A DNA stretch of 34,385 nt, taken from positions 1 through 34,385 of the forward strand of contig NZ_AWWI01000127.1 of NCBI RefSeq assembly GCF_002760615.1, written 5' to 3'. Positions within the stretch are counted from its first letter, which is position 1. Every line of letters starts with the position of its first letter. Both the position numbers and the translations under genes were made by a program. Under the pieces are notes generated by a model. It was not told the origin of the DNA, ran no database searches, and saw only the letters and a program-made list of their open reading frames with translations. The DNA is from Puniceibacterium antarcticum. Its GTDB lineage: Bacteria > Pseudomonadota > Alphaproteobacteria > Rhodobacterales > Rhodobacteraceae. Of this stretch, positions 8,035-33,958 are shown one piece after another.

Positions 8035-8047
8035 GGAACTGGGACTT

Positions 8048-10515: not shown

Positions 10516-10572
10516 CCATGTCAGCGCCCCGGCAGGGACGCGACCATTTCCATCAATACAAGGACTGACCGG

Positions 10573-12087: not shown

Positions 12088-12114
12088 GCGAACAGAGTAC
12101 CCCCCGGTGAGACT

Positions 12115-12147: not shown

Positions 12148-12164
12148 CCCGAAGGATTGTAAAA

Positions 12165-13297: not shown

Positions 13298-13308
13298 CAG
13301 AGGCAGAC

Positions 13309-18727: not shown

Positions 18728-19762
18728 ATGAAAATCGGTTTGATCCTCTCACACGAAGGGCTGGCTGGACTCTGGACCCTTGGCTGCCAGGGGGCATCGC
18801 TGCTTGCCGCTGCAGAGCTGAACGTCGGTGGAGGCGTGCTTGGCCAAGAGATCGAACTTGTCCAGATCGACTCGGGAGAGTCTCCAGCCAGCGCCTTCAG
18901 GGCAGCACAGCGGCTGGCGCTGGATGAGAATGTGGACGCCGTCATAGGCCTGCAATCCAGCAATCTTCGGTCTGCCGTAAGGCGTGGGTTGAACGGGCTT
19001 GCCCCTTATATCTATACGCCGCATTACGAGGGCGGATTTTGCGGGCCAGGCACGGCCCAGCTTGGCATCACCGACAGTGAGGTGCTCAATCCCAGTCTGG
19101 ACTGGATGACCACTCACCGCCGCGCGAAACGTTTTTTCTTTGTCGGCAACGATTACATCTGGCCCCGCGTTGCCCATGGTACCACCAGTGAGGCGGTGCA
19201 GAGGGCAGGCGGCACTTTTGTTGGTGCAGCGCTTTTGCCTCTGGGCCAGAGAGATTATGATCAGGTTCTTGAAAAAATCCGGCAGACCCGGCCCGACGTT
19301 GTTGTAATCGCGATGTTGGGTGAGGATTCTGTCTGCTTCAACCGGGCCTTTGCGGATGACGGTCTGAGCGGCAATATCATCCGGCTGAACCTTGCCTTTG
19401 ACGAAACGCAGCTGCTCGCGCTGGCCGACAGCGGCACCGAAAACCTGTTTGCTGCGCAATCTTATTTTGACACAAGCCGCGGTCTGGACCGTGATTCGCT
19501 GGTCGAAAAATACGATGCCTGCTTTTCGGGGCAGCGCCCGATGATGACCGCCAATGCGGTCCAATGCTACGACGCGATCTATCTGGTTGCAGCGATGGCG
19601 CGGCAGGTGGGACGCGTTGATGGATCGAGCATGGCGCATTTCCTGCGCCCGCGTCTTCAGCGCGATCATGCGTACAGGATGATTGGGCATGCCGATGCGG
19701 GGGTGCGGTTGGCCGAAGCCGACGGGGTCGATTTCATTGTCAGGCGGTCTTTCTTCACCTGA
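18728..19762 (+). CDS. AmiC-like leaderless periplasmic-binding-fold protein (predicted amide sensor)
   Basis: The 344-residue protein has the Peripl_BP_6 fold of AmiC, UrtA and related amide/urea binders. The first strand MKIGLILSHEGLAGLW starts at residue 1, so there is no signal peptide and the protein should be cytoplasmic. Like UrtA of this window it has the ligand-loop motif YEGG-C (HYEGGFCGPG near residue 100). AmiC of Pseudomonas is a cytoplasmic negative regulator of amidase expression through AmiR. No AmiR/ANTAR gene is present here, but a MarR regulator follows 139 bp downstream. It may therefore be a sensor with a different partner. The Shine-Dalgarno is weak. An alternative is a binding protein whose signal sequence was lost by mutation. 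Confidence 0.7.
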   Translation: MKIGLILSHEGLAGLWTLGCQGASLLAAAELNVGGGVLGQEIELVQIDSGESPASAFRAAQRLALDENVDAVIGLQSSNLRSAVRRGLNGLAPYIYTPHYEGGFCGPGTAQLGITDSEVLNPSLDWMTTHRRAKRFFFVGNDYIWPRVAHGTTSEAVQRAGGTFVGAALLPLGQRDYDQVLEKIRQTRPDVVVIAMLGEDSVCFNRAFADDGLSGNIIRLNLAFDETQLLALADSGTENLFAAQSYFDTSRGLDRDSLVEKYDACFSGQRPMMTANAVQCYDAIYLVAAMARQVGRVDGSSMAHFLRPRLQRDHAYRMIGHADAGVRLAEADGVDFIVRRSFFT

Positions 19763-19844
19763 ACTTTGCCGTTCTCAGGTGTGACATTTGCGCCGCCAAG
19801 ATTCTGAGTGGCAATAGTCGCCGTTTTAAATGTTATGGATTACT

Positions 19845-19858
19845 GCACCCGTGGGTGC
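19845..19858. promoter_or_regulatory. Palindrome upstream of the MarR gene (candidate operator)
   Basis: GCACCC-GT-GGGTGC is a perfect 6-bp inverted repeat with a 2-bp centre, 43 bp before the MarR-type start codon. MarR-family regulators are usually autoregulated through short palindromes of this size. No T-run follows, so it is not a terminator. Confidence 0.45.
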
Positions 19859-19901
19859 TAAAGATCTAATTATTAGTATTCAGGTTATTTGCGGAGGCAC
19901 A

Positions 19902-20321
19902 ATGGCAGACCCGAAGTTCACCGAGCAGCTGGGCTATTTGATCTCGCGAGCCAATCGCCTGATCGAAGAAGATCTGTCAAAGCGCCTCGGCGCGAATGGC
20001 ATCACCCTAGAACAATACCGCGTGCTCAAATCTCTTGAAGAAGAAAGCCCGCTGCCGATGGGCCGTCTGGCCGAGCGCGTGCTGGTGGAACCGGCGACAC
20101 TGACCAAGATCATCGACCGAATGGTGCGCGAAACGCTGGTCTTCCGCGTTCCCGATGATAAGGACCGTCGCAAGGTGCGCGTGGCGCTCTCATCGAACGG
20201 CGTTGCGATGTGCCGACAGCTTGAAGGCGTCGGTGATGACCATGAAAAGCATGTCGCCGAAGCGTTCAGCGCGGACGAGCTTGGCGATGTGTGCCGTATC
20301 CTGTCCGATATTGGGATCTGA
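19902..20321 (+). CDS. MarR-family winged-helix regulator
   Basis: The 139-residue protein has the MarR layout: an N-terminal dimerisation helix (FTEQLGYLISRANRLIEEDL), the recognition region (LAERVLVEPATLTKIIDRMV), and the wing with the family signature DDKDRRKVRVALS near residues 84-96. The start at 19902 is fixed by GGAGG 5 nt upstream. A longer frame from 19830 lacks a site. It follows the AmiC-like gene in the same direction and probably controls the amidase, urt or urease genes. The ligand is unknown. Confidence 0.88.
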   Translation: MADPKFTEQLGYLISRANRLIEEDLSKRLGANGITLEQYRVLKSLEEESPLPMGRLAERVLVEPATLTKIIDRMVRETLVFRVPDDKDRRKVRVALSSNGVAMCRQLEGVGDDHEKHVAEAFSADELGDVCRILSDIGI

Positions 20322-20581: not shown

Positions 20582-21322
20582 TTATAGCGCTGTTCGCCCT
20601 GCTATGACGCTGAGCTCAGGGCTATTGTCTTTGAGGCCTATCCCTGTTGTCTCGATATCCCTTGCACGCGATATAAGCCACGCAAGCCGCGCCGCAGCAA
20701 CAGCATAAGATAAGCCGCCGTTTGCGTGGATATTCGACACGCAGTTTCGTGAACTGTCACGGGTGCCAATGTTTGGTTTCCAGGAAAGATAGGCTCCAAG
20801 GCTGTCTGACACCGTCAACCCCGGACGCTCGCCAATCAGAACCAGCACCAATTCAGCCCCCGTCATGGCTCCTATCTCATCGCCGATTGCGACGCGAGCT
20901 TGCTCTGCAAGAAAGATCGGCGCGCTTTTCGCGATTTGGCAGACCGCCCTCAGGCCGTGAACCAATGGAGCGGCATGAGCCGAAAGCGCAGGCGGTGACA
21001 ATCCATCCGCAATGACAATCGCGAGGGCCGGATGCGTGCGTTCAAGGTGGGTGCCCTGCGCGAGCCGACGGCCAAGATCGGGCCTTTTGAGATAGACCGC
21101 CCTATTCTGGGCGCGGCTTTTGACACGCTGCGTGACCATCGAGGGGTCCGTTTCTAGGCTTTGCCAATCGGGCGCTCTAAAAATGGCATCGCGTGCAGCG
21201 GCGTGATCTTCCTGAAAGGCCATAAGCCGGGACAGCGGATAGGGGCCCCCCTCTGCCTCCAGACGAACACGCGAAGGCGTCATAGTCTTGAGCGAGGTCA
21301 AGCGTTTCTCAAGAGATCCCAT
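20582..21322 (-). CDS. eutC: Ethanolamine ammonia-lyase small subunit
   Basis: The 246-residue EutC subunit completes the B12-dependent lyase that converts ethanolamine to acetaldehyde and ammonia. Family landmarks are IVIADGLSPPAL near residue 100, the GERPGLTVSDSLGAYL segment near 160, and SNIHANGGLSYAVAAARLAWL near 190-210. The start codon overlaps the eutB stop by one base (TAATG) with no Shine-Dalgarno of its own, so translation is coupled. It is the last gene of the long minus-strand operon and abuts an IS6 remnant. The length is slightly short but in the normal range. Confidence 0.92.
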   Translation of the reverse strand: MGSLEKRLTSLKTMTPSRVRLEAEGGPYPLSRLMAFQEDHAAARDAIFRAPDWQSLETDPSMVTQRVKSRAQNRAVYLKRPDLGRRLAQGTHLERTHPALAIVIADGLSPPALSAHAAPLVHGLRAVCQIAKSAPIFLAEQARVAIGDEIGAMTGAELVLVLIGERPGLTVSDSLGAYLSWKPNIGTRDSSRNCVSNIHANGGLSYAVAAARLAWLISRARDIETTGIGLKDNSPELSVIAGRTAL

Positions 21323-22701
21323 TATGCCATCAGCCCCATTTTCGTGATAAAATCTGCAGGATTGGGCAGAGCACCGGAATGTCCGCCCAAACCGACCCTG
21401 CGCAGCCAGACATCGAACTCCGGCGCGGCTTTCAGTCCTGAAATTTCGCGCAGATAGTCAATGTCTTCAAAGGCAAGGCTCTGGTACCCCAGCATCGCGT
21501 CATCGGCTCCTGGCACGGTGATTAGGAAATTCACGCCCGCACAGGCCAACAGAGTCGCCAGCGTATCCATGTCGTCCTGATCTGCCTGAACATGGTTCGT
21601 GTAGCAGACGTCGACTCCCATCGGTAGGCCAAGAAGCTTACCGCAGAAGTGATCCTCCAGCCCCGCCCGAATGATCTGTTTTCCGTCATAAAGGTATTCG
21701 GGCCCAATGAACCCGACCACCGTGTTGACCAACATCGGATTAAAGGCGCGTGCAACGCCGTATGCCCGGGCTTCGAGGGTCTGCTGGTCCACGCCATGGT
21801 GGGCGTCGGCTGACAGGGCCGCCCCCTGCCCCGTTTCGAAATACATGACATTCTGACCAACTGTCCCACGAGCAGCGGCCAGACCCGCCTCATGAGCTTC
21901 ACCCAGCAAAGACAGCGATATGCCAAAACCTTCATTTGCGCCCTCACTGCCCGCCACGGACTGGAAGATCAAATCGACGGGCGCGCCTGCCTCAAGCAGT
22001 TCAATCGCATTCGTCACATGCGTCAGGACGCAGGTCTGGGTGGGAATGTCGAAACGTGCGCGGATATCATCCAGAGACGACAGCAGGCTATGGCAATTCG
22101 CGATGTTGTCTGACGCCGGGTTGATGCCGATCACCGCATCGCCCGCCCCGAAAAAGAGACCGTCCAGCACGGCCACCGCAATTCCCATCGGATCGTCTGC
22201 GGGGTGGTTGGGCTGAAGACGCGTAGCAAGCGTGCCCTTGCGCCCGATCGTGTTGCGAAAGGCGGTGATGACCTCGGCTTTTCGTGCGACACGGATGAGG
22301 TCCTGATTGCGCATGAGCTTGGACACTGCGGCGATCATTTCCGGCGTAAAGCCGGGCGCTGCTGCGGTCAACGTCTGTGCCGTGGCCACCGGTGACAGCA
22401 GCCAGTCGCGCAGCTCCCCGACAGTCATTGACGAAAAGGGGGCAAAGGCCGCGGCGTCATGCGTGTCCAAAATAAGCCGCGTCACCTCGTCGGTTTCGTA
22501 GGGAATGACGACTTCATTGAGAAAAGTCTTAAGCGGCAGATCAAGCAGGACACGGCGTGCCGCGACACGTTCGAGCGCGCTGTTTGCGGCGATCCCTGCC
22601 AATTGGTCACCTGATTTTTCCGGTGTCGCGGCTGCAAGGACATGAGCCAGAGAGCTGAAGGTAAACCGCTCCGCGCGCGCGGTCGCGCAATAGGTGGGCA
22701 T
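21322..22701 (-). CDS. eutB: Ethanolamine ammonia-lyase large subunit
   Basis: The 459-residue TIM-barrel subunit carries the active site. Conserved EutB stretches are visible: TRLQPNHPADDP near residue 160, GDAVIGINPASDN near 188, QSVAGSEGANEGFGI near 245 and LPMGVDVCYTNHVQADQDDM near 365. Substrate-contact residues such as the Glu of SEGAN and the Asp of MGVDVCYTNH are in place. The ATG at 22701 has GGAGG 5 nt upstream. An upstream extension overlaps the kinase gene and is unlikely. No EutA reactivating factor, no EutE aldehyde dehydrogenase and no microcompartment genes are near, so this is a minimal eut set as in Pseudomonas-type clusters. Confidence 0.93.
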   Translation of the reverse strand: MPTYCATARAERFTFSSLAHVLAAATPEKSGDQLAGIAANSALERVAARRVLLDLPLKTFLNEVVIPYETDEVTRLILDTHDAAAFAPFSSMTVGELRDWLLSPVATAQTLTAAAPGFTPEMIAAVSKLMRNQDLIRVARKAEVITAFRNTIGRKGTLATRLQPNHPADDPMGIAVAVLDGLFFGAGDAVIGINPASDNIANCHSLLSSLDDIRARFDIPTQTCVLTHVTNAIELLEAGAPVDLIFQSVAGSEGANEGFGISLSLLGEAHEAGLAAARGTVGQNVMYFETGQGAALSADAHHGVDQQTLEARAYGVARAFNPMLVNTVVGFIGPEYLYDGKQIIRAGLEDHFCGKLLGLPMGVDVCYTNHVQADQDDMDTLATLLACAGVNFLITVPGADDAMLGYQSLAFEDIDYLREISGLKAAPEFDVWLRRVGLGGHSGALPNPADFITKMGLMA

Positions 22702-23645
22702 CACAGCCTCCGCAGGCAGGTTGCCCAGTCGGGATGTTCCATGATGGAGCGCGCCCGCATCTTTTTCCACATTCCGTATTTGTGGAAATCAAAACCTAGG
22801 CGCGACACTTTTAGTTGAACCATAGACCACAAGCACCATTTCACATCAGCAAGCGCCTTGTGCACCGTTACCCGAGCGACAATGTCCGGGCGGACCTCAC
22901 CGAAATACTCCTCGATCAGCTCAAGTTCTCTTTCCGGGGAAAAGAACATCTCGCCAAACCAGATGCCGAGGTCGTAGCAGCGGTCGTTCATCGAGGCGTA
23001 TTCATAGTCGATCAGCATGATGGACCTGTCGCCACCGATCATGAAGTTGCCAGGCATCGGGTCGTTGAACGACGTCACCAGATCCAGACCAGAGGCGTGT
23101 ATGGCGTCCCTTGCAAGCTCCGTGTTGAGCAAGACCCAGTCGCCATCCCTATACATAGGCGCCCCCAGATCGCGCACCTGCCCGAGATGTTCGTCGATCA
23201 TGTCGAATACCGTCTTGGTCAGGCCAAGCGCCGGAAGCCCGTGCAGCGTACGATAGGCACCGATCGCCGCCTTGCACATATCAATATCGGCAAAATCGCT
23301 ATGGTTCGACGGGCGGCGGTCGGCAAGAAAATCGTTGATCTCGACGCCCCTATCGGCGAGGTCGTCATAAACACGAGGGCCTAGCCCTGCGGCGGCGGCT
23401 TTCTGAGAGGCTTCAAGCGCGGTCGCACGGTCGATGAACATTTCAGTGCCGTTTCCGGGCACCTTCACGAACCAGTCGCCTGCACCCTTCGGATCCTGCA
23501 CCCGCCAGTTTTCGTTTGAAATACCGCCGGACACAGGCCCGTAGACCAGGCCGACACCGCCGCCAAAGAGCGCCGCGTCACGGATCATCGTTTCGATGGT
23601 GTCTTCCATCGGATCACTCGCACTGCCCAGAGGTTTCATCATCAT
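22701..23645 (-). CDS. Choline/ethanolamine-kinase-like phosphotransferase (1)
   Basis: The 314-residue protein has the APH/choline-kinase fold. The nucleotide loop is GPVSGGISNENWRV near residues 37-50, the catalytic loop is SFNDPMPGNFMIG near 200 (the family's H/N-D-x4-N pattern), and the metal-binding Asp is in LIDYEYASMNDRCYDLG near 217. The last motif closely follows choline/ethanolamine kinase. It is therefore likelier to phosphorylate a small amino alcohol than an antibiotic. Three ATGs in tandem begin at 23645. The first overlaps the preceding stop (ATGA). The position directly before eutB, joined by a 1-bp overlap, suggests that its substrate or product belongs to the same pathway. 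Confidence 0.75.
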   Translation of the reverse strand: MMMKPLGSASDPMEDTIETMIRDAALFGGGVGLVYGPVSGGISNENWRVQDPKGAGDWFVKVPGNGTEMFIDRATALEASQKAAAAGLGPRVYDDLADRGVEINDFLADRRPSNHSDFADIDMCKAAIGAYRTLHGLPALGLTKTVFDMIDEHLGQVRDLGAPMYRDGDWVLLNTELARDAIHASGLDLVTSFNDPMPGNFMIGGDRSIMLIDYEYASMNDRCYDLGIWFGEMFFSPERELELIEEYFGEVRPDIVARVTVHKALADVKWCLWSMVQLKVSRLGFDFHKYGMWKKMRARSIMEHPDWATCLRRL

Positions 23646-24571
23646 GCTGCCTCTCCCGTAATGCGGATTTTCTCTTCGAATTGCGGATGGCCCAAAGACA
23701 AGCGCAGGCGCAACAGGCGCCATTCACCGTATTTGATCCATTCGACGGCCTTGCGTTCCGAGCGACGCGCCATGAGCCGCGCCCAAAGTGCCTGCAGCAT
23801 ATCGTCCGCATGAGACCACAGCCGTGCACGCGCAAAGAGAACTTCATCAAACACGCCAGCATAGGCGACGAACCCCGCCCTCATGTCGCGCTCGTGGTCT
23901 GTCATCTCGGCCAGAAGACAACCAACATCATACATGGGATCGTTCATTCCCGCAGTGTCGTAATCCACCAACCGGACCTGCCCCTCCGGCCCGACCATGA
24001 GATTGGAGGACGCACCATCATTGCGGCAGGGCACAAGGGGGGAACCGCCAAGCAAGCCTTGGGCCATGCCGATCACGCGGCGCAGCCAAAGAATGTCATG
24101 CGGCAGCTCAACGCCTTCGGCCCGGTGCGCTTCCATCAACGCGTCGATCCGTGCAAAGGCGTCAAAACGGCCCGGCAGACCCGCAGTCCCGTGCAGTGCC
24201 TTTATCGCGCTCATGGCCGCAGCAATGACTTCGGAATTCTGGAGATCATGCTGGCGGGCTGTGATCCAGCCTGCATCAAGAGGGTCCATCGCGACGGCGC
24301 CCATATCGGCATTGCTCCAGAGAACCTTCGGTCCAGCACCAACCTCACCAGCCTGAGTGGCCATCTGAACCGAGCGCTCAAAATCTATCCCTGCCCGCAT
24401 CTCCGGATGCAATCGCTTGATAAAAGCCGCCCCGGTCAGAACCGAACGGCTGTCGAGCGCCTGGCAACTGGGAGAGGCCAGCGCGGCAGGTCCAGCCTTT
24501 GCCCCCTCCATCGAAAAACCGGCCGAGACGACGGCCTCTTTCATCATCTCATCGCTAACCAGTCCGGTCAT
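23642..24571 (-). CDS. APH/choline-kinase-fold phosphotransferase (2)
   Basis: The 309-residue protein is a more divergent relative of its downstream neighbour. The catalytic loop reads PCRNDGASSNLMVG near residue 182 and the metal site reads LVDYDTAGMNDPMYDVG near 203, so the key Asp and Asn are both kept. The N-terminal nucleotide loop is atypical (SCQALDSRSVLTGAAFIKRL near 35-54, with a Lys that could contact ATP). Two tandem kinases of the same fold in one operon probably act on different intermediates or as a heteromer. Start and stop overlap both neighbours by 4 bp (ATGA), indicating strict translational coupling. Substrate unknown. Confidence 0.65.
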   Translation of the reverse strand: MTGLVSDEMMKEAVVSAGFSMEGAKAGPAALASPSCQALDSRSVLTGAAFIKRLHPEMRAGIDFERSVQMATQAGEVGAGPKVLWSNADMGAVAMDPLDAGWITARQHDLQNSEVIAAAMSAIKALHGTAGLPGRFDAFARIDALMEAHRAEGVELPHDILWLRRVIGMAQGLLGGSPLVPCRNDGASSNLMVGPEGQVRLVDYDTAGMNDPMYDVGCLLAEMTDHERDMRAGFVAYAGVFDEVLFARARLWSHADDMLQALWARLMARRSERKAVEWIKYGEWRLLRLRLSLGHPQFEEKIRITGEAA

Positions 24572-25851
24572 ATCGCACCTGCTGCTTTGTCCAAAGATCC
24601 ACCTGCCAGATCAATCCGGCGGATCATGTTCACGAGCACGTCGCCACCAGCAGCGAGATCCTCAGGGGAAGTGTATTCATCGTTGCGGTGAATGACGCCG
24701 TTCACAGAGGGCACCGCGATGACAATCGCGGGCAGTGTCGCATTCACGGCAACGGCATCGTGGCCGGCAATCGTATCAAGCTGCATCTTAGGATAGCTAA
24801 AATCATCAGCCGCCGCTTCGGCAAGGCTGACAAGGCGGCTGTCGAACCGACCCGCCGGGCGTCGGTCCACCGCGACCACTTCAGCAGAGACAGCTGCCTT
24901 CTGTGCCAGAACAGGCAACGCCGCACGCAATTCCGCCTCGGACCAGTCCAGCATATCGGGTTCAGGCGCGCGCAGTTCGGCGAAAAGCACAGCCTTGCCC
25001 GGCACGATATTGGGCGAGTTCGGTGAGATATCGACGCGGGCCACAGAGGTGTAGAGCGTATCTGCAGCGGTATCGGCCAGCTCCCTTACCTTGGCGATGA
25101 TGTAGGCTGCGCCCAGTACGGCATCCTGACGTTCGTTCATGGGGGTCGGGCCGGTGTGATTCTGCTTGCCGGTCACTTCGATACGGACCTTCAGCGCTCC
25201 CCAATGTCGGATAAAGGGGGCAATCCGCGCTCCGGCCTTTTCCATTTCGCTGTCACCCTCGATATGGACTTCTAGGTAGCAATCGGGTCTCGGTGCCGGG
25301 TCACTGCCCATGTAACCGGTGCGCCGCAGCTCTTGCTCGACTGTTTTGCCATCGCGATCCATTCGCGAGAGCGCAAAATCCCGGGTCAGCGATCCGGCAT
25401 AGACAGAGGAGCCTAGAAGTGAGGGCTGAAACCGCGCGCCTTCCTCGTTCATCCAGTCTACAATCACGTAATTGCAGCTGGGCGTGATACCGCGCTCCGT
25501 GACTTCCTTGCGCCAGGTCTCGACAGCGCTCAGTGCCGCGACGACACCATAGGCACCGTCAAAGCGTCCGCCTTTTGGCTGGCTGTCGAGGTGCGAACCG
25601 ATCATCACAACTGGCGCGTCGGGACCAGCCAGATCCAGCCGCCCGAAGACATTGCCGATATCGTCGACGAGCACCTTGTAACCACGGCTGCTTAGTTCGC
25701 CGCAGAACCAGTCACGGGCCGCCTTGTGATCATCGGTCAGCACGGGGCGGTCCACGCCCCCATCAGCAGTGTCCCCGAACTCCGACACTTTTTCCATCAG
25801 CGCGTGCAGCAGCGTGGTGTCGATACGAGGTATGTCACATCTCTCAGTCAT
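24568..25851 (-). CDS. M20-family amidohydrolase (N-carbamoyl-amino acid hydrolase / allantoate amidohydrolase type)
   Basis: The 427-residue binuclear metalloenzyme belongs to the HyuC/AllC branch of M20. Metal ligands are the His and Asp of GSHLDSQPKGGRFDGAYGV near residues 80-98, the Glu pair in MNEEGARF near 127, the His in EVHIEGD near 190 and the final His in VIHRNDEYTSPED near 382. The dimerisation domain has NHTGPTPMNERQDA. The segment after the fourth ligand is HIEGDSEMEKAG where the family usually has HIEQGP, so the substrate pocket differs. Members cleave N-carbamoyl or ureido groups or amides, releasing ammonia and CO2 or an acid. The ATG at 25851 overlaps the ABC ATPase stop by 8 bp. 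A longer frame has no support. In this operon it could free the amine that EutBC degrades. Confidence 0.8.
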   Translation of the reverse strand: MTERCDIPRIDTTLLHALMEKVSEFGDTADGGVDRPVLTDDHKAARDWFCGELSSRGYKVLVDDIGNVFGRLDLAGPDAPVVMIGSHLDSQPKGGRFDGAYGVVAALSAVETWRKEVTERGITPSCNYVIVDWMNEEGARFQPSLLGSSVYAGSLTRDFALSRMDRDGKTVEQELRRTGYMGSDPAPRPDCYLEVHIEGDSEMEKAGARIAPFIRHWGALKVRIEVTGKQNHTGPTPMNERQDAVLGAAYIIAKVRELADTAADTLYTSVARVDISPNSPNIVPGKAVLFAELRAPEPDMLDWSEAELRAALPVLAQKAAVSAEVVAVDRRPAGRFDSRLVSLAEAAADDFSYPKMQLDTIAGHDAVAVNATLPAIVIAVPSVNGVIHRNDEYTSPEDLAAGGDVLVNMIRRIDLAGGSLDKAAGAI

Positions 25852-27685
25852 GGATGCTATCCTTGGCTCCGGTATTGCTATCGAGAAAGCAAGCCGCGAG
25901 GGCGTGATTGCCACGGCTCGTAAGTGCAGGGTTTTCCTTGTGGCAGCGTTCAAACACATGCGGGCAACGGCTGGCAAAGGCACAACCGGGCGGCAGGTCA
26001 ATCGGCGAGGGCGGCTCGCCTTCCAAAAGGCAATCTTCGGGACGATAACGGCGTTCTTCCAGAGTCGGAGCTGCCGAGAGAAGCGCCCGGCTATAGGGGT
26101 GGCCCGGATCAAAGAACAGCCGTTCGTTGGGCGCCACCTCGACGGTTTCCCCCAGATACATCACCGCGATGCGCGAACAGACCCTGCGGACCATGGTCAG
26201 GTCGTGCGAAATGAAGATATAAGTAAATCCATGCTGCGCCTGCAGCCGCTCGAACAGATCGAGAAGCTTGCCCTGTTCGGTCTGATCCAGCGCCGACAGA
26301 GTTTCATCCATGATCAGCAAACGCGGCTCAAGGATCATCGCCCTTGCCACGTTCAGGCGCTGGCGCTGGCCTGCGGACAGCCCGGTGGGCAGGCTGTCGT
26401 AGAGCGCCTCGTTCAGGCCGACTTCGCTCATCGCAGCGCGGGCACGTTCGCGGCGTTCCTTGCGGTCACCAATGCCATGGATTTTCAGCGGTTCTTCGAG
26501 AATTGAGCCGATTGCAGATTGCGGCGGCAGCGAACCATAGGGATCTTGCAGGACAAGCTGGAAGTGACGTCGCAAGGCACGCAGGCGTTTAGAGCTCGCC
26601 TCGCCAACATTTTCACCCTCGAAAAAGATAGATCCCGCATCAGGACGTTCCAGCCCTGTCAAAAGACGCAACAACGAGGATTTACCGCAACCAGACTCTC
26701 CGACAATGCCAAAGTTGTCGCCCGGAAAGACGTCGAACTCGACATTACGTACGGCCTGCACGAGCGCCTTTCCGGTCTTGCCTCTGGTCGCGTAATACTT
26801 GGCAACACCTCGCACGGACATGATCGCCTGTTGATCGCGGTTCGGGGGCGTGTCCCGCCCTTTCCGGTCGTCGGCCCAAAGGGTTGGCAGCTCTTCGATC
26901 AGCTGGCGCGTGTAGGTGTGTTCGGGCTTGGCGACAAGGTTTGCCGAACTCTGGCGTTCCACCACGCGGCCTGCATGCAGCACCATCACCTCGTCGCCCG
27001 CATCGCAGGCCACCGGCAGCGAGGAGCAGATAAAAAGGATGGCGGTCGAAAAATCTGCGTTCAGCTCGCGCATCAGCTTGAGGATTTGCGCCGCCACCGT
27101 CACATCAAGCGGCTGTGTGATGTTGTCGGCGATCAGAAGAGCGGGATCGGAAATCAGCGCATCCACAATCATGACCCGTTGCATCATCCCGCCAGAATAC
27201 TGGAACGGATATTCGTGATAGCGTCTCTCGGCAGACGGAATTTTGACCGCGCCAAGCAGTCGAATAGCCTTTTCCTTGGCATCCGCCGCCGAAATATCGG
27301 GGCGTACGGCGCGCAGTTTTTCGACGAGTTGCGCGCCCACCGTCATCGTCGGATCAAGCGCGCCCGCAGGGTTGCCGCCCACATAGGCGATTTCCCGGCC
27401 TGCTAGGCTTTTTGCATAGGCCTTGTCGGCGATCAGGTCGCTACCGCTGAACAGCACCTCTCCCGAGGTGACCCTGAGCGGGGCCGAAAGCCAGCTCACC
27501 AGTGCGCGTGCAAGCACTGTCTTGCCTGATCCGCTTTCCCCGATCACGGACAAAATTTCGCGTGGTTTTAGGTCGAAACTGATGTCCTCAAGAATGGCTC
27601 GGGTTTTCCCCTCGCTTTCCAGGGTCACTGTCAGCCCCCGCACGGACAGAAGGGCCTCGGTCGAATGTGCCGTATCAAGAGCCAT
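25844..27685 (-). CDS. Fused Opp/Dpp-type ABC ATPase with degenerate first NBD
   Basis: This 613-residue chain holds two ABC domains (about 10-265 and 285-600), equivalent to DppD-DppF. NBD2 is complete: Walker A GESGCGKS (329-336), Q-loop Gln380 in VLQDP, signature LSAGQRQR (436), Walker B LLIMDE with Glu461, switch His494 in FISHDL, and the Cys-rich oligo/dipeptide tail (Cys568, 574, 581, 599). NBD1 keeps Walker A (GESGSGKT, 49-56) and a signature (YSGGM, 163), but the Q-loop reads YVGGNP (Gln to Gly), Walker B reads LLIADN (Glu188 to Asn), and the switch reads ILFICSSL (His to Ser). One site is thus predicted non-hydrolytic. The ATG at 27685 has GGAGG 8 nt upstream and follows the oppC stop by 1 nt. 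Confidence 0.88.
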   Translation of the reverse strand: MALDTAHSTEALLSVRGLTVTLESEGKTRAILEDISFDLKPREILSVIGESGSGKTVLARALVSWLSAPLRVTSGEVLFSGSDLIADKAYAKSLAGREIAYVGGNPAGALDPTMTVGAQLVEKLRAVRPDISAADAKEKAIRLLGAVKIPSAERRYHEYPFQYSGGMMQRVMIVDALISDPALLIADNITQPLDVTVAAQILKLMRELNADFSTAILFICSSLPVACDAGDEVMVLHAGRVVERQSSANLVAKPEHTYTRQLIEELPTLWADDRKGRDTPPNRDQQAIMSVRGVAKYYATRGKTGKALVQAVRNVEFDVFPGDNFGIVGESGCGKSSLLRLLTGLERPDAGSIFFEGENVGEASSKRLRALRRHFQLVLQDPYGSLPPQSAIGSILEEPLKIHGIGDRKERRERARAAMSEVGLNEALYDSLPTGLSAGQRQRLNVARAMILEPRLLIMDETLSALDQTEQGKLLDLFERLQAQHGFTYIFISHDLTMVRRVCSRIAVMYLGETVEVAPNERLFFDPGHPYSRALLSAAPTLEERRYRPEDCLLEGEPPSPIDLPPGCAFASRCPHVFERCHKENPALTSRGNHALAACFLDSNTGAKDSIHD

Positions 27686-27686
27686 G

Positions 27687-28598
27687 TCATGCACCTCCGT
27701 AAATCTTGTTTCGCGCCCTTTCGAGTGCTGCTCCCATCAAGTTGATCGAGGTCAGTGTCAGCACAAGGAACACACCCGGCATCGTGGCGATCCACCATGC
27801 ATTCATCAGATATTTGCGCCCATCAGCGATAATATTGCCAAAGGTCGGCGTTGGCGGCTGCACCCCGAGCCCTAAAAATCCGAGCACGGATTCAAAGATC
27901 ATCATGCGCGCGATATCCAGAACCGCGACAAAGGCGATGGGCGGCAGGACCAGTGGCAGGATGAGCGAAAACATAATCCGCCAATCGGTCGCGCCCAACA
28001 CCATCGCGCCGCGCACGAACTCTTTCTTGCGCTCGGACATGACAGTTGATCGCATCACCCGCGCATAGACAGGCCAACCCGCAAGACCCAACACGAGGAT
28101 GATGGAAGGGATCGTAGGGCGCGAAACACCCAAGATGGTGATCGCAAGAATAATCATCGGGATAGAAAGCTGTGCATCGGTCAGCCGCATAAGAACGGTA
28201 TCGACACTGCCGCCGAAATATCCCGAGAACAGGCCCACCAATGCCCCGACAGCCAGCATGACAACCGTGGTCGAAACGCCGATCAACAACGAATACCGCA
28301 AACCGACCAGCGCGCGTGAAAGCATGTCGCGCCCCAGCTGATCGGTACCGAGGGGGTGAACCCAGCTCCAGCCGTCACCAAAGAACACTGGCGGCGAGAG
28401 CTTGGCAGAGATGTTCATCTTTGTCGGGTCGATCCCGGAAAACATCGGATAAAAGATAGCCGACAGTAACAGGATGACAAAGACGACGAGGCCAATCTTA
28501 AACTCGACCGAGGCAAAGGCTTCGGACCAGATGCGCGCGGCAATCTTGCGTTCCTTGCGCGGGGTTGAGAGGTCAGGGGTGATTTCAAGATAGCTCAT
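27687..28598 (-). CDS. Opp/Dpp-type ABC transporter permease (C-type)
   Basis: The 303-residue inner-membrane protein is of the DppC/OppC family. It has a cytoplasmic N-terminus, a first membrane helix near residues 33-55 (FKIGLVVFVILLLSAIF), the family segment HPLGTDQLGRDMLSRALVG near 82-100, and the coupling EAA-loop region (ARVMRSTVMSERKKEFVRGA near 180-199). Five further helices follow. Its ATG overlaps the preceding permease stop by one base. It pairs with the B-type permease to import small peptides or peptide-like compounds. Confidence 0.88.
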   Translation of the reverse strand: MSYLEITPDLSTPRKERKIAARIWSEAFASVEFKIGLVVFVILLLSAIFYPMFSGIDPTKMNISAKLSPPVFFGDGWSWVHPLGTDQLGRDMLSRALVGLRYSLLIGVSTTVVMLAVGALVGLFSGYFGGSVDTVLMRLTDAQLSIPMIILAITILGVSRPTIPSIILVLGLAGWPVYARVMRSTVMSERKKEFVRGAMVLGATDWRIMFSLILPLVLPPIAFVAVLDIARMMIFESVLGFLGLGVQPPTPTFGNIIADGRKYLMNAWWIATMPGVFLVLTLTSINLMGAALERARNKIYGGA

Positions 28599-29578
28599 CA
28601 GTATTCCAGCCTCGGGTCAATCGCTGTCGCACACAGGTCGACAACGATGTTGATCAGCACGAATGCGGCGGCGGTGACGATGGCGATACCTTGGATCAGG
28701 GGGAAGTCACGTTGCATGACTGCGTTAATCGTCAGAAGGCCAAGGCCCGGGTAGTCGAAAATAAACTCGATCACGAGAACACCCCCCAAAAGCATCGAAA
28801 ATTGCACGCCCAGCAAATTCAGAAGCGGCACAGCCGAGTTTTTCAGCGCATGATGAAAAATGATCTGGTTCCGGGTGAGACCCCGCACCGCAGCGATGTC
28901 GATGAAATTCTGCCCCATCACCCCGGCAACCGAGACGGTCAATGTGCGGATGATGAAGGGAGCAATTTCCACGGCCAGAACAAGAGCGGGCAGAATTGTG
29001 TAGGCAAACCCGTCATACCCAATCGCCGGAAGGAGCTTCAGCTTGACCGAGAGAACCAAGGCAAGGACGATCCCAAGCCAGAAATTCGGCAGACTGACGA
29101 ATACAGACGACAGATACAGGGCGAACCTGTCTGGGAACTCCCCAGGCCTGAGCCCGCCCCACACCCCGATCGGGACAGCGATGATGAGCGCGAAAACCAT
29201 GGCCAAAAGGGCCAGTTGCAATGTCATCGGTGCGGTATTGGCGATCAAGTCCCAGACCTCGGCACGCTCGCTGCGGGTATTGTCGTCAAAACTTGCTCCA
29301 CCGACAGAGGCCCCATTCGCCGGGCGTACAAAGCTTTGGCCCAGATCGCCCTGAAGCATGCCGCCGACATAACGTCCAAATTGCTGATAGATCGGATCCC
29401 GCAGGCCCATGTCCTCTGCGATCTGTTCTATCAGCGCCTCTGGCGCCATCCCTCCGGCCATGAGGCGGACAGGATCCCCGGGAACGACGCGCAGCAAAGT
29501 GAAGATGATGGCAGAAACAAGGAGAACAATCAGTGCGCCCTGAAATAGCCTTCGCGCGAGAAAACTGGCGATGAACAT
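28598..29578 (-). CDS. Opp/Dpp-type ABC transporter permease (B-type)
   Basis: The 326-residue membrane protein is of the DppB/OppB family. The N-terminus (FLARRLFQGALIVLLVSAI, then RVVPGDPVRLM) is diagnostic. About six membrane helices and the coupling loop (FIDIAAVRGLTRNQIIFHHA near 223-242) follow. A periplasmic insertion near residues 85-105 (FVRPANGASVGGASFDDN) is longer than in E. coli DppB. GGAGG stands 6 nt before the ATG. A hairpin terminator or attenuator separates it from the binding-protein gene upstream. Confidence 0.88.
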   Translation of the reverse strand: MFIASFLARRLFQGALIVLLVSAIIFTLLRVVPGDPVRLMAGGMAPEALIEQIAEDMGLRDPIYQQFGRYVGGMLQGDLGQSFVRPANGASVGGASFDDNTRSERAEVWDLIANTAPMTLQLALLAMVFALIIAVPIGVWGGLRPGEFPDRFALYLSSVFVSLPNFWLGIVLALVLSVKLKLLPAIGYDGFAYTILPALVLAVEIAPFIIRTLTVSVAGVMGQNFIDIAAVRGLTRNQIIFHHALKNSAVPLLNLLGVQFSMLLGGVLVIEFIFDYPGLGLLTINAVMQRDFPLIQGIAIVTAAAFVLINIVVDLCATAIDPRLEY

Positions 29579-29601
29579 CGGTCCCTCCGGTAGGTTTTTC
29601 G

Positions 29602-29637
29602 AAAAAAGGCCGGAGCCCGGAATAGTCGGGCTCCGGC
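29602..29637 (-). terminator. Intra-operon terminator/attenuator between binding-protein and permease genes
   Basis: On the minus strand GCCGGAGCCCG (29637-29627) pairs perfectly with CGGGCTCCGGC (29619-29609), giving an 11-bp stem with a 7-nt loop, followed by a run of T (29607-29602). It lies between the binding-protein stop and the permease start. Partial termination here would give more binding protein than membrane components, as in many ABC operons. Confidence 0.85.
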
Positions 29638-29646
29638 TTGGCGTGA

Positions 29647-31221
29647 TCAGGCCCTGGTTGCCTCAGAGGCGTCGATTGTCCCGTCCGGATAGATGAAGAG
29701 GTCCTTCACGTCGGCGCGCACCCCATGCATTAGCACGGAAGTGAACAGGCTGTAGGCAGGCACCTTTTCGGCGAGCAGAGGCATCAGATTGGTCTGAAGG
29801 CTCTCTTTGCGGGCTTCAAGCGAAGGCGCATCGCGCTCGGCATCAAGTGCTGCGTCGATTTCCGCATCGTCGATCCCGCAAATGCGCTTTGAGGTGGAGT
29901 GGAAGTGAGTGCGCAGAACAAGATCTGGCTCGGGGGAGGCGCTGGTCCAGCCGCAGTCAATCATGTGGCCGGGACCACCGCCCGGACGGTCATACAGGCG
30001 TTCGTTCCACGCCGCGACTTCCATCACGTTGAGCGTCACGGGAAAACCCTGCTCCTGAAGAAGCGCGGTGATGACCTCGCCATATTCCTTCGTCTTGGGA
30101 TAAAAGCCCGTGGAGGTGATGTATTCGATCTCTGGCAGACCCTGCCCGCCCGGATAGCCCGCTTCGGCCAGCAGGCGTTGGCATTCTTCCGGATCGTATT
30201 CCGGGTAGTTGTCCAGCGCGATGTAGCCAAACTTAATCGGGGAGACAAAGTTGGACGACGGCTCCCCTGCGGTCCCCATGACATCAAGGATGATGCTGCG
30301 GTCGATGGCGTGACAGACCGCCTTGCGCAGCAGCGGGTTGTCAAACGGTGGCTTGGAGCAGCGGAACCAAAGGTATTTGTTTTCCACAGAGACGGCCCGG
30401 TTGAGAACAATGCCGTCTTCGCCCTGCAGCGTTTCGACCTGTTCCGGTTCGAGGCGTTCGATCACGTCGGCCTGACCGTTCATCAGCGACAGCATGCGTG
30501 TGGTGGAATCCCCCACGAAAGAGAACCGCACGCCCGGCACCTTGGGTGTGCCACGGAAATAATCCGCGTAGGCTTCCATGACGGTGTCGTTGCCATCCTG
30601 CTCTACGAACTTGAAAGGGCCAGTGCCGTTCAGTCGCTGAGACAGCGCGCCGTTCGGACCGCCTTCGATGTCCTTGATGGACATGATCGGAAGATAAGAG
30701 GCAAGGAAGATGAACATCGCCGCGCCATATCCGCCTTTGGTCGTGTCCACGATCACGGTGTAATCGTCGGGCGTTGTGACCTCAAACGTGTCTGCAAAGC
30801 CCGGATAGACCTGACGCGCGCGTTCCGGCTGTGCACCATATTCAAAGGTCGCCTTGACATCCTTAGCCGAGAAAGGCTCGCCGTCGTGAAACGTCACACC
30901 CTCGCGCAGCTTGATCTCAAGATGGGTCGCGTCGATGAGGTTGAGCTCGGTGGCAAGTTCATAGACCACTTCATCGGGGTTATCTGGCATCATCGGCGAC
31001 CGGGTGAGGAACCCCATGATGAAGCCTTCGATGTTGAACTGCGACAGCGTCGTATGCGCCATCGGGTCCCAGTTACCTGTGATGTTCTCAGCCGACAGAA
31101 AGGTCAGCGGGCGCGCCTCCTGTGCAAAGGCCGAACTGAAGAAAAATTCGGGATTAAGGCGCATAGCGGCCGCCGAGGCACCCGCCATCATGCCGTAGCG
31201 AAGGAAATCTCGTCTTTCCAT
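29647..31221 (-). CDS. Opp/Dpp-type ABC transporter substrate-binding protein
   Basis: The 524-residue SBP_bac_5 (cluster C) protein has a twin-arginine-like leader (ERRDFLRYG followed by a hydrophobic stretch and an AFAQEA cleavage site near residue 35). It should be periplasmic. Domain landmarks are FHDGEPFSAKDVKATFEYG near 115-133, GTGPFKFVEQD near 205 and RKAVCHAIDRS near 300. The ligand class of this family includes peptides, opines, nickel, glutathione and sugars, so specificity cannot be read directly. The ATG at 31221 is preceded by AGGAG 9 nt upstream. It lies 59 bp downstream of the phosphatase gene. Confidence 0.87.
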   Translation of the reverse strand: MERRDFLRYGMMAGASAAAMRLNPEFFFSSAFAQEARPLTFLSAENITGNWDPMAHTTLSQFNIEGFIMGFLTRSPMMPDNPDEVVYELATELNLIDATHLEIKLREGVTFHDGEPFSAKDVKATFEYGAQPERARQVYPGFADTFEVTTPDDYTVIVDTTKGGYGAAMFIFLASYLPIMSIKDIEGGPNGALSQRLNGTGPFKFVEQDGNDTVMEAYADYFRGTPKVPGVRFSFVGDSTTRMLSLMNGQADVIERLEPEQVETLQGEDGIVLNRAVSVENKYLWFRCSKPPFDNPLLRKAVCHAIDRSIILDVMGTAGEPSSNFVSPIKFGYIALDNYPEYDPEECQRLLAEAGYPGGQGLPEIEYITSTGFYPKTKEYGEVITALLQEQGFPVTLNVMEVAAWNERLYDRPGGGPGHMIDCGWTSASPEPDLVLRTHFHSTSKRICGIDDAEIDAALDAERDAPSLEARKESLQTNLMPLLAEKVPAYSLFTSVLMHGVRADVKDLFIYPDGTIDASEATRA

Positions 31222-31280
31222 TGTGTCACTCTCCTGTTGTGGCCCGCTGGGGCCTTTGATGATTTGGAAAATTGCGGTCT

Positions 31281-32075
31281 TTACGCCGCTTGGGCCGCGC
31301 GCAGCAAAGCCAGCTCTCTCAGCATTTCTGCGTGCAATTCGGGTGTGGCAGAGGCCAGGACATCGCCAGAAGATCCAACGTTGAGTGGATCTCCGTTCCA
31401 ATCGGAAATCACTCCGCCTGCGCCGCGCACAATCTGCACGACGGGAAGATAGTCATAGGGCTCGAGTCCGGTTTCCAGCACGAGATCGCAAAAACCTGAG
31501 GCCAGCAGGGCGTAATTATAGCAGTCCCCGCCAAACCGAAGCAGACGCACACGGTCACGCAGCATGTCGTAAACCGGTGTCTTTTCGCCCGAGAACAAGA
31601 TCGGATCAGTGGTGTAGGCATAGGCAGATGCCAGATGTTTGCACTCGCTTGTCGTCACAGGTTTGCCGTTCAAAGTTGTGTCGGCACCTTTTATACCGCT
31701 CCAACGCTCGCCAATGGCGGGCATGTCGATTTGACCAAGCTGCGGTTCACCATGTTCCAACAGCGCCATGAGGCCGCCAAAAAGCGGGTGGCCAGTTACA
31801 AAGCTTTTTGTGCCATCGATCGGATCCACGACCCACACGAACTCCCGGTCAAGGTTTTGCACACCGTGCTCTTCACCGAAAATTCCGTGCTCTGGATATG
31901 CCCGCTCTATTTGTTCGCGAAGAAAGGTCTCGATTCCGCGATCCGCGACCGTAACCGGGCTGTCGTCACTCTTGTGTTCAACCTGCAACGCATGTCGAAA
32001 GTAAGAGCGCGCGATTTCGCCGGCCCCATCGGCTGCTTGGTTGGCAAATTCCAAGGCATCTCGCAAATCGAGCAT
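31281..32075 (-). CDS. Inositol-monophosphatase-family phosphatase (HisN-like)
   Basis: The 264-residue Mg-dependent phosphatase has the IMPase superfamily motifs: Glu68-Glu69 in FGEEHG, VVDPIDGTKSF (Asp84, Asp87) and EPYDYLPVVQIVRGAGG near 212-228, which gives the last metal Asp. The GGDCYNYALLASG segment is typical of the histidinol-phosphate/HisN branch. No other histidine-biosynthetic gene is near. Located first in an ethanolamine-linked operon, it may dephosphorylate an imported or kinase-made phosphoester instead. The ATG at 32075 has GAGAGG 5 nt before it. A GTG two codons earlier is an alternative. It is divergent from the DeoR gene. Confidence 0.82.
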   Translation of the reverse strand: MLDLRDALEFANQAADGAGEIARSYFRHALQVEHKSDDSPVTVADRGIETFLREQIERAYPEHGIFGEEHGVQNLDREFVWVVDPIDGTKSFVTGHPLFGGLMALLEHGEPQLGQIDMPAIGERWSGIKGADTTLNGKPVTTSECKHLASAYAYTTDPILFSGEKTPVYDMLRDRVRLLRFGGDCYNYALLASGFCDLVLETGLEPYDYLPVVQIVRGAGGVISDWNGDPLNVGSSGDVLASATPELHAEMLRELALLRAAQAA

Positions 32076-32149
32076 CTTCACCTCTCATCAGTTTGGCATT
32101 CCTCAGGCCCATGGGCCGATTGAATCCAAGCTGCAGCCAGGCTCAGCAA

Positions 32150-32158
32150 AAATCCACA
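32150..32158. promoter_or_regulatory. Half-site copy of the DeoR-type operator
   Basis: AAATCCACA repeats the left arm core of the inverted repeat at 32263-32294, about 75 bp upstream of the phosphatase start. Two separated sites would permit DNA looping across the divergent region, a common feature of DeoR-family control. Confidence 0.4.
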
Positions 32159-32262
32159 CAAAACAACACAAAAGCACGACTTCCCACATTGTGCTCTGTT
32201 TTTACGCTAAATATGGGAGATAATGAGGTAAATACTGTCATAATATGTCTTTTAATGCCATA

Positions 32263-32294
32263 AAATCCACAAATTCAAATAAATTTGTGGATTT
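32263..32294. promoter_or_regulatory. 13-bp perfect inverted repeat, candidate DeoR operator
   Basis: AAATCCACAAATT (32263-32275) and its exact complement AATTTGTGGATTT (32282-32294) are separated by 6 bp. The repeat lies 44 bp before the DeoR-family start codon, in an AT-rich divergent promoter region (32160-32300). It is the most likely binding site of that regulator. No T-run follows that would make it a terminator. Confidence 0.7.
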
Positions 32295-32338
32295 GCACAG
32301 CGAGACAGGCAAGACGTGTCGAAAACGGAGAACGAGTC

Positions 32339-33115
32339 ATGTGGACGCACGAGCGCCATTCCAGAATCATAGAAGAGCTGTCGAAAAGCGGGAAAGTGAA
32401 CACGAGAGTTTTAGCTGACTTGCTGTCCGTTTCCCGCGAAACCATCCGCCGCGACTTTCTCGACCTTGAGGAGTGCGGAACTCTCAAACGTGTCCACGGC
32501 GGCGCTGTGTTGTCGGGCCGACAGATCGCACCGGAACCCGCGTTCTCAGATCGTTTGACTGCAAATGCCGACGCAAAGCGTGATATCGGCAAAGAGGCCG
32601 CTGCGCACATTCAACCCGGATCGACACTGTTTATAGACGCCGGCACCACGACGCTCGCTTTCGTGCGCGAGATATTATTCCACCGTGACGTTCGGATCAT
32701 CACGAATTCGATCGAGATCGCAAAACTGGTTGCCCCAACGGGAAACCTGGAAGTGTTGCTGCTCGGTGGCAAACCGCATGCCGAGGTCCCGGCAACATAC
32801 GGCGAACTCACACTTTCCGAAGTGGACCGATTTCTTGCGGATTTTGCCGTGATCTCTCCAGTTGGCTTCCATCCGACGCGTGGCGCGACCGACTATGAAC
32901 TGCACGAGGCCGAAGTCGCCCGTCGGATGATAAGGTGCTCGAAAAGTTGCATCATGCTCTGTCACTCGGACAAGCTCACTATGGAGAGCCGCGTTGCGAT
33001 ATGCCGCCCGGAAGAAGTCGATCATCTGATCACTGACTCAAAAGCGGATCGGGGCTTTTCTCTCCCCCGTGGCGAAGTTCATTTCGCTCGGCCTCATGAG
33101 ACAGATGTGAGGTGA
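32339..33115 (+). CDS. DeoR-family transcriptional regulator
   Basis: The 258-residue regulator has an N-terminal DeoR helix-turn-helix (VLADLLSVSRETIRRDF near residues 22-38, then RVHGGAV) and a C-terminal sugar-isomerase-like sensor domain with the family's DAGTTTLAFV phosphate-binding region near 98-107, ITNSIEIA near 120, and LLGG near 139. Family members usually sense phosphorylated small metabolites. A CGGAG site precedes the ATG at 32339. It is divergent from the phosphatase-opp-eut operon and shares its control region, so it very likely represses or activates that operon. The ligand may be one of the phosphoesters produced by the operon's kinases. Confidence 0.88.
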   Translation: MWTHERHSRIIEELSKSGKVNTRVLADLLSVSRETIRRDFLDLEECGTLKRVHGGAVLSGRQIAPEPAFSDRLTANADAKRDIGKEAAAHIQPGSTLFIDAGTTTLAFVREILFHRDVRIITNSIEIAKLVAPTGNLEVLLLGGKPHAEVPATYGELTLSEVDRFLADFAVISPVGFHPTRGATDYELHEAEVARRMIRCSKSCIMLCHSDKLTMESRVAICRPEEVDHLITDSKADRGFSLPRGEVHFARPHETDVR

Positions 33116-33439
33116 TGGGGAAACCGACTGGCGCCTCGAACAACTGACCATCAGCGTTGAGGTCGAGCACATGGAGGAGAATTATAGTGGCGACGATCGT
33201 GGCCTGATCATCTCGCGCCTGGGCCTCCTGCCTTGGAGACGGTTAGCATGGTTTTGGTTCCTTCGCGCGCCCCGTAGGATCTCCCGACAGCGGCCTGATC
33301 TTGTCTGCCAGCGCAAGCCAGGTGCGATTCATACCTTGCCCCCCTGCCCTATCGATGACTGCGGCTATCAGCGCCGGTCAAGGGCTTGTCTGGCATTGCC
33401 AAATTGTCTGGCTTGCCTAATCGGGCTATGGCGTACTCC
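33116..33439. other. 324-bp stretch without a convincing gene
   Basis: A 90-codon frame at 33171-33443 has no domain, and its composition is not protein-like. The right part (from about 33380) is probably the left end of the IS6 element that follows, although I could not identify its terminal repeat with confidence. Confidence 0.4.
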
Positions 33440-33958
33440 ATGAAAATACCAACCAGTCTGCCGCGCCTGAAGGGCTTCCGTTTTCCACGTGAGATCATCG
33501 CTTATGCAGTGTGTGCTTATCATCGCTTCGCGCTGAGCACGGCTGACGTCGAGGACCTTCTGGCGGAGCGGGGCGTGATTGTCAGCCGGGAAGCCGTCCG
33601 GTTATGGGTCAATCGATTTGGTCGGCATTTTGCGAATTGCATCCGGCGCGATCGTCCTCGTCCCAACGACAAATGGCACCTGGATGAGGTTGTGATCCCG
33701 ATCCGCGGCAAGAAGCATTGGCTGTGGCGCACAATTGGCGCGAATGGCGAGGTTCTCGATATACTTGTGCAAACGCGGAGAAGCGGAAAGGCAGCAAAGC
33801 GGTTTTTCAAAGGGCTGATCACTCAGTTCGGCGCGCCGAGGGTCGTGATCACGGATAAATTACGCAGCTACATCAAGCCGATCAAAACGCTGGCACCGGA
33901 CGCTACCGGCACGCGCAGGGCCGCTTCAGTGTTGATCGACCCCGCAAAGACCGCGTGA
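33440..33958 (+). pseudogene. IS6-family transposase truncated by a fusion to foreign DNA
   Basis: The frame starts at MKIPTSLPRLKGFRFPREII and follows IS6/IS26-type transposases through the HTH (VSREAVRLWVNRFG), the first catalytic Asp (WHLDEV) and the second (VVITDKLRSY), up to KPIKTLAPDA near residue 154. The expected continuation (DHRAHKGLNN-type, with the catalytic Glu) is absent. The last about 18 codons are the antisense of a P-type ATPase gene. The transposase lacks its third catalytic residue and must be inactive. The junction lies at about 33901-33908. The subgroup differs from the remnant at 20456. Confidence 0.88.

Follow-up and report, generated by a model that had tools for sequence, protein, structure and literature searches.

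The window analysed here, a 34,385-nucleotide stretch of Puniceibacterium antarcticum (Alphaproteobacteria, Rhodobacterales; contig NZ_AWWI01000127.1), carries on its minus strand a run of genes for a peptide-type importer, an amide hydrolase, two kinases, a phosphatase and both subunits of ethanolamine ammonia-lyase (EutBC), which faces a gene for a DeoR-family regulator. An earlier note on this DNA had counted nine genes at 20582-32075; the coordinates and the strand are borne out, but the genes number ten. Their order is HisN-like phosphatase, substrate-binding protein (SBP), the permeases PermB and PermC, a fused double ABC ATPase, an M20 amidohydrolase, the kinases Kin2 and Kin1, EutB and EutC. 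Start codons were chosen by us for SBP, M20, Kin1, EutB and DeoR. The features are:

32339..33115, plus strand: DeoR-family regulator gene, divergent from the operon (open reading frame with chosen start)
32263..32294: candidate DeoR operator, a perfect 13-bp inverted repeat AAATCCACAAATT-N6-AATTTGTGGATTT; a third half-site lies at 32149-32158
31281..32075, minus strand: HisN-like (inositol monophosphatase family) phosphatase; PF00459 2.9e-51, TIGR02067 275.8 bits
29647..31221, minus strand: Opp/Dpp-type SBP; PF00496 1.9e-68
28598..29578, minus strand: permease, B type (PermB); PF00528 and PF19300
27687..28598, minus strand: permease, C type (PermC); PF00528 and OppC_N
25844..27694, minus strand: fused double ABC ATPase with oligo_HPY domain; two PF00005 stretches, PF08352
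24568..25851, minus strand: M20 amidohydrolase, carbamoylase-like with an altered pocket; Peptidase_M20 1e-16, NCBIfam NF006772 629.6 bits (cut-off 424)
23642..24571, minus strand: Kin2, kinase of the APH/choline-kinase fold; APH PF01636 4.4e-12
22701-23639 (more ATGs at 23642 and 23645), minus strand: Kin1, choline/ethanolamine-kinase-like; PF01633 9.2e-20
21322..22701, minus strand: EutB, ethanolamine ammonia-lyase large subunit; PF06751 1.3e-208
20582..21322, minus strand: EutC, ethanolamine ammonia-lyase small subunit; PF05985 7.2e-71, NF003971 above cut-off

From PermB to EutC the genes are as tightly joined as the earlier note had described. Single bases are shared at PermB/PermC, Kin1/EutB and EutB/EutC, the overlaps at PermC/ABC ATPase and ABC ATPase/M20 are 8 bases long, and that at M20/Kin2 is 4. 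One junction depends on the choice of start: Kin2 and Kin1 overlap by 4 bases if Kin1 begins at 23645 and are otherwise separated by a 2-base gap. Spacing is wider upstream, with 59 bases between HisN and SBP and 68 between SBP and PermB.

Kin1 was used to search a collection holding one genome per species. The best 80 of the 83 passing stretches were taken, with best Kin1 segments 41-80% identical to the query, and three further loci from two genomes of the class brought the total to 83 (loci, genomes and contigs are cited below by L, G and C numbers). Because a first gene caller performed poorly and a second still missed genes, presence was scored by BLAST over all open reading frames of each locus at >100 bits, a count that may include paralogues elsewhere in the locus. 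Besides Kin1, present in all 83 by construction, this approach found M20 in 77 loci, Kin2 and the ABC ATPase in 71 each, SBP, PermB and PermC in 68 each, DeoR in 64, HisN in 53, EutB in just 19 and EutC in 16.

Two main layouts were observed. One is that of the window, with deoR facing hisN-SBP-permeases-ATPase-M20-Kin2-Kin1; the other is SBP-permeases-ATPase-deoR-M20-Kin2-Kin1, with or without hisN. This gene order recurs across many alphaproteobacterial genera, which rules out chance clustering and agrees with the conserved neighbourhood on which the earlier note had staked its proposal. Beyond Alphaproteobacteria, a few gammaproteobacteria (L051, L086, L091) have it, and actinobacteria (L107-L109) have part of it. 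The spread is patchy: a Kin1 match at E 1e-70 occurs in 6 of 244 genomes of the order, and one as strong in 3 of 385 genomes of the class. At L049 the operon adjoins repABC-type genes, and L087 and L061 hold members of the same clusters, hinting that it may sit on plasmids in some genomes. These data support the operon as a conserved unit made up of the importer, the amide hydrolase, two kinases, the phosphatase and the DeoR gene with a conserved candidate operator. No published description of this operon was found in open-licence PubMed Central papers, whether by its gene combination or by way of a kinase/phospho-lyase route.

The regulator was assigned to the DeoR family from its N-terminal helix-turn-helix-like sequence, and its relatives in the other loci are 28-75% identical. 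The gap between deoR and hisN in the window contains the perfect 13-bp palindrome listed above. Exact copies of its 9-mer half-site number 19, spread over 12 of 28 other deoR-hisN or deoR-SBP gaps, against 0.05 expected from the rest of the same loci; if one mismatch is allowed there are 45 in 23 of the 28, against an expected 1.4 to 2.0. These counts are not independent, since the loci are related. No exact half-site was found in the other intergenic gaps of the same loci (39,976 bases).

Enzymes of the EutBC family depend on adenosylcobalamin and convert ethanolamine to acetaldehyde and ammonia. In the window both subunits are present and score above curated cut-offs; EutB matches the solved Listeria EutB (2qez) over its full length with 487.9 bits, and is the only EutB found in the genome. 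Neither eutA, nor an Eat permease, nor shell genes were among the family matches of the ten operon genes, a comparison that did not extend to the rest of the genome. The low frequency of EutB rules out EutBC as the core of the operon, and the locus is therefore an upstream module, with EutBC attached in some cases, and not a eut cluster with unusual partners. No M20 enzyme or kinase of the operon kind was found in 19 other EutB regions of the class with gene calls (20 of 27 were fetched, and L145 gave no calls).

The operon EutBs fall into two clades of the EutB tree, each with 100/100 support: one of Rhodobacterales (nine, with one off-operon EutB inside) and one of Rhizobiales (eight). The tree, from which the partial EutBs of L064, L072 and L074 were left out, needs three label changes. 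Forcing the operon EutBs into one clade cost 46 log-likelihood units (p-AU 0.028), in a test that left out the long-branched L184 and to whose group L183 was added after the tree had been seen. L183 is the off-operon EutB inside the Rhodobacterales clade; the operon of its genome is L048. Among the nine, EutB comes after Kin1, among the eight, after HisN, a difference that fits separate insertions and, with the tree, suggests two recruitments of EutBC into the operon. Salipiger mucosus is one carrier of the form with EutBC. Remnants were also observed. In G393 (L044) the first 28 residues of EutB begin just past Kin1, at the contig end. In Bradyrhizobium sp. BTAi1 (G415, L071) a 58-residue EutB piece (G415:C1:2692972-2693145) lies 183 bases past the operon HisN; full-length EutBs lie elsewhere in that genome, and the piece is probably a lost operon copy. 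In Paracoccus yeei (L072, about 4.3-8.3 kb) deoR, a Kin1 matched from residue 102 on and a contig-end EutB adjoin, the genes from hisN to Kin2 are missing and an iron alcohol dehydrogenase stands beside deoR; this is probably a deletion remnant. Stutzerimonas kirkiae, the genome of L086, carries two adjacent EutB-like genes (G425:C38, L170), one of them 39% identical to the window EutB.

Genomes without EutB in the locus often hold it elsewhere: it was found above cut-off in 24 of the 49 searched (of 61 scanned loci without EutB, L069 and 11 others were left out). In all, 43 of 68 operon genomes (19 in the locus, 24 elsewhere) have EutB, against 28 of 385 genomes of the class; a Fisher test of this contrast counted 27 of 385 and is thus off by one genome. 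Both kinship and genome size confound the comparison, and kinship may account for some of the excess.

Immediately downstream of Kin1 at L056 and L059, and in its orientation, lie genes for four enzymes: an FGase-like amidohydrolase, a glutamine-synthetase-like enzyme, an aldehyde dehydrogenase and an iron alcohol dehydrogenase. The ethanolamine operon of Phaeobacter, as described in PMC10132767, consists of these four activities and a TRAP importer. The EutBC slot at L056 and L059 is filled by enzymes of the gamma-glutamyl ethanolamine (eto) type, which are unrelated to EutBC. Since the glutamine-synthetase-like enzyme occurs in 45 of 61 genomes of the order, it is its place after Kin1, and not its mere presence, that counts. 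Relatives of three of the enzymes lie near the operon at L021, on the opposite strand and without the FGase. The window genome and three relatives also hold eto-type clusters with the enzymes arranged in this order, and genes matching TRAP subunits in size (judged by length, not by domain) lie among them; no iron alcohol dehydrogenase was called in one of the four, L213. The TRAP importer and the four gamma-glutamyl route enzymes are absent from the window's own operon. The window genome probably has two ethanolamine routes, because it carries an eto-type operon (contig C173, L212) in addition to EutBC. The proposal of the earlier note that the operon feeds ethanolamine breakdown is backed by two EutBC clades, by the eto-type slot and by the EutBs that operon genomes hold elsewhere; the central place it gave to EutBC is not supported.

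Profile and fold searches placed Kin1 (model predicted local distance difference test, pLDDT, 91.7) closest to 3dxq, a Mesorhizobium choline/ethanolamine kinase family protein, to LicA and to eukaryotic choline and ethanolamine kinases; PF01633 scored above its cut-off, and the top folds were choline/ethanolamine kinases. Mapped onto Kin1 from PMC4364537, the choline-site residues of LicA correspond to Y216, E232, W270, W273 and Y290, kept in 79-86 of 87 sequences; LicA T29 has its counterpart in S43 in 74 of 87, V178 is replaced mostly by Met, and the position of Q31 varies. D195, N200, D213 and E215 are also kept (each in 79-87 of 87). Among 63 aligned Kin2 sequences, position 52 is Lys in 54 and Arg in 8, Asp185 is kept in 60 (Glu in 3), and Asn190 and Asp203 are invariant, but the aromatic set of the amine site is not kept. 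With the catalytic Asp185 and Asn190 retained, the idea that Kin2 is a pseudokinase is not supported. Judged by these residues, both kinases look active, and only Kin1 looks like an amino-alcohol kinase. At L046 (13163-16412) and L045 (about 14.4-16.4 kb), EutC is followed by an amidase and a second Kin2-Kin1 pair, whose Kin1 is 36-37% identical to that of the window and keeps most of the amine site.

The M20 enzyme (model pLDDT 95) matches carbamoylases in both model and sequence, with 34-35% identity to the nearest solved ones. H81, D92, E130, E131, H190 and H382, which we take to be the metal ligands and catalytic Glu of M20, show no substitution in 75 aligned sequences (0-2 gaps). H226 and R288 are kept in all 75 and N275 in 74; these three presumably form the clamp for the carboxylate of the released amine half. 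Elsewhere the pocket is altered, with Trp211, Lys215 and Arg325 in 75 of 75 operon enzymes where five aligned PDB proteins hold Gln, Trp and Phe/Tyr (a mutated Phe in 8aq0). The pocket Gln of all five is accordingly replaced by Trp211 throughout, and a second Gln by Gly193 in 60 of 75. The S. meliloti carbamoylase has F329 at the position of Arg325 and L217 at that of Ala213; these two residues are changed in 8aq0 according to its title.

Other amide hydrolases accompany the kinases. Amidases stand next to Kin2-Kin1 pairs in L045, L046, L103, L104, L106 and L107; in L047 the neighbour is a gamma-glutamyltranspeptidase, and L070, L073, L099 and L104 contain DMF-amidase-like genes (assigned by Pfam in L046, L103, L107, L047 and L099, by clustering in the other loci). 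A sodium-symporter-like gene is present at L107 and L098 (identified by Pfam at L107), where no Opp importer was found within the stretch examined. On this gene content, amide hydrolysis together with a kinase pair is a recurring theme; the DMF-amidase-like, amidase, gamma-glutamyltranspeptidase and aminotransferase neighbours gave no clue to the substrate.

The phosphatase barely exceeds the TIGR02067 cut-off of 275.15 bits. It is a second copy, the other lying on contig C121 of the window genome, and at least two TIGR02067 matches were found in 13 of 13 operon genomes searched. In a tree of 28 of the 50 called operon copies plus the window copy (in which the position label of L088 is wrong), 14 of 15 non-operon copies form a group separate from most operon copies; one gammaproteobacterial operon copy stands beside them, and one non-operon copy falls among the operon copies.

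Ethanolamine is a widely used source of nitrogen and carbon, best known to originate from phospholipid head groups. We propose a model, plausible although it falls somewhat short of probable, in which the operon takes up a compound that contains ethanolamine in amide linkage and supplies ethanolamine to whichever route for it the host possesses. The Opp-type importer would bring the compound in, and one or both kinases would phosphorylate the hydroxyl end of the imported amide. M20 would then hydrolyse the amide, with the phosphate sitting in the conserved anion clamp that binds a carboxylate in carbamoylases. Kinase action was placed before M20 mainly because, if the clamp has this role, it would stay unoccupied with ethanolamine, which is neutral, but be occupied by phosphoethanolamine. 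The HisN-like phosphatase may remove the phosphate: histidinol phosphate, a known substrate of the HisN family, is a substituted phosphoethanolamine. EutBC would deaminate the ethanolamine to acetaldehyde and ammonia, with eto-type gamma-glutamyl enzymes standing in for it in some relatives, and DeoR, acting through TGTGGATTT half-sites, would repress the operon until a phosphorylated intermediate accumulates. What the analysis shows of this scheme is the conserved unit, two unrelated end modules for ethanolamine, the intact Kin1 pocket and the altered M20 pocket; the dedicated second copy of HisN and the further amide hydrolases beside Kin2-Kin1 pairs also speak for it. The specific route within this model, in which the alcohol of an ethanolamine amide is phosphorylated so that a carbamoylase-type M20 reads the phosphate and a HisN relative frees ethanolamine, we regard as possible but rather unlikely.

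Several observations weigh against the model. The Kin1 pocket, an aromatic cage with E232, suits a cationic or free amine, whereas an amide nitrogen is uncharged; this conflict leaves low confidence in the kinase-first order. The proposed scheme does not need a second kinase. The role of the M20 clamp is presumed, and the extra cationic residues of the pocket could equally bind a diacid. BLAST does not detect HisN in 30 of 83 loci and EutB in 64, 8 of the latter without room for it on the contig. In the sample of the order, EutB was found in 3 of 6 genomes that have Kin1 and in 18 of the 238 other genomes (Fisher p 0.009); leaving out the contig-end EutB fragment of G464 raises p to 0.079, so that the case for a strong Kin1-EutB association within the order is weak.

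One alternative, which we consider unlikely, is that M20 cuts first and frees ethanolamine from an amide whose acid half bears negative charges. Kin1 and the HisN-like enzyme would then be a side loop for phosphoethanolamine, made by the kinase and removed by the phosphatase, which would serve as DeoR inducer or as a trap, while EutBC or the eto-type enzymes consume ethanolamine. This order is consistent with a Kin1 pocket like that of a free amino-alcohol kinase and with the place of M20 ahead of the kinases in most layouts, but it would leave the presumed carboxylate clamp for the amine half without an anion, waste ATP on a kinase-phosphatase pair acting on the end product and again leave Kin2 unexplained. 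To a similar degree we doubt that the substrate is another amino alcohol or a choline-like compound, with EutBC and the eto-type enzymes as opportunistic neighbours or acting on an ethanolamine analogue. The many loci without EutB, the fit of the Kin1 cage to quaternary amines and the importers of other types that accompany the kinases in some genomes would all suit such a substrate; accident would hardly produce both two EutBC clades and, in the same slot, eto-type enzymes, however, and EutB is full length and closely matches solved ethanolamine ammonia-lyases.

It is very improbable that the kinases supply a phospho-lyase route, in which an amino alcohol is phosphorylated and its phosphate then broken down to aldehyde, ammonia and phosphate, and that EutBC runs alongside as a parallel branch. 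L069, L088 and L104 do carry genes of the class III aminotransferase fold that fall into one cluster (Pfam on the L088 member only), but by this clustering just these 3 of 83 loci have them; they lie kilobases away from the kinases and score best against general transaminase models, and they make weak candidates for a phospho-lyase partner.

An operon that is conserved but patchy, and that seems to produce ethanolamine from a different imported compound, suggests that soil, plant and marine bacteria use a nutrient so far unrecognised, and the operon may mark a nutrient source as yet unnamed. If true, the phosphate-handle route would add a new way to produce ethanolamine, and the nutrient behind it would be a common one that has gone unrecognised. 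The substrate can be searched for directly with one binding protein and two kinases.

Beside the operon, 5851-18610 of the window is a dense region of amide and urea nitrogen genes, with a branched-chain-type binding protein (5851-7143), amidases at 10573-12087 and 17078-18610, and the urease genes UreF, fused gamma-beta and alpha at 12635-15683 and onwards. Between the second amidase and EutC (18728-20321) lie a gene of a periplasmic-binding-protein family, which lacks a signal peptide and looks, from its sequence, like a cytoplasmic amide sensor, and a MarR-family regulator. Just past deoR, at 33386-34383, an IS240-type transposase reading frame (DDE domain) overlaps the end of one that resembles, by eye, a metal P-type ATPase.

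The operon shares parts with several known systems. LicA and Mesorhizobium 3dxq have the fold and amine-site residues of Kin1, but here two kinases stand in tandem in a catabolic operon and Kin2 has a different pocket. N-carbamoyl-beta-alanine amidohydrolase and L-carbamoylases (8c46, 8apz/8aq0; NF006772) share fold and metal ligands with the operon M20, in which their pocket-region Gln, Trp and Phe/Tyr give way to Trp211, Lys215 and Arg325. As in canonical eut clusters, both EutBC subunits are full length and above family cut-offs; here they belong to a longer import and kinase operon and are optional in relatives. The agrocinopine (acc) operon of Agrobacterium, with a peptide-type importer, a phosphatase and a DeoR-type regulator, has these three parts in common with the operon but lacks kinases, M20 and EutBC; AccA, a distant relative of SBP (about 90 bits), is among the closest solved structures to SBP, none of which exceeds 129 bits. 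The eto operon of Phaeobacter sp. MED193, as described in PMC10132767, has the same four kinds of downstream enzyme as L056 and L059, fed by a TRAP importer specific for ethanolamine, whereas here an Opp-type importer, M20 and the kinases precede the enzymes, and the window itself uses EutBC.

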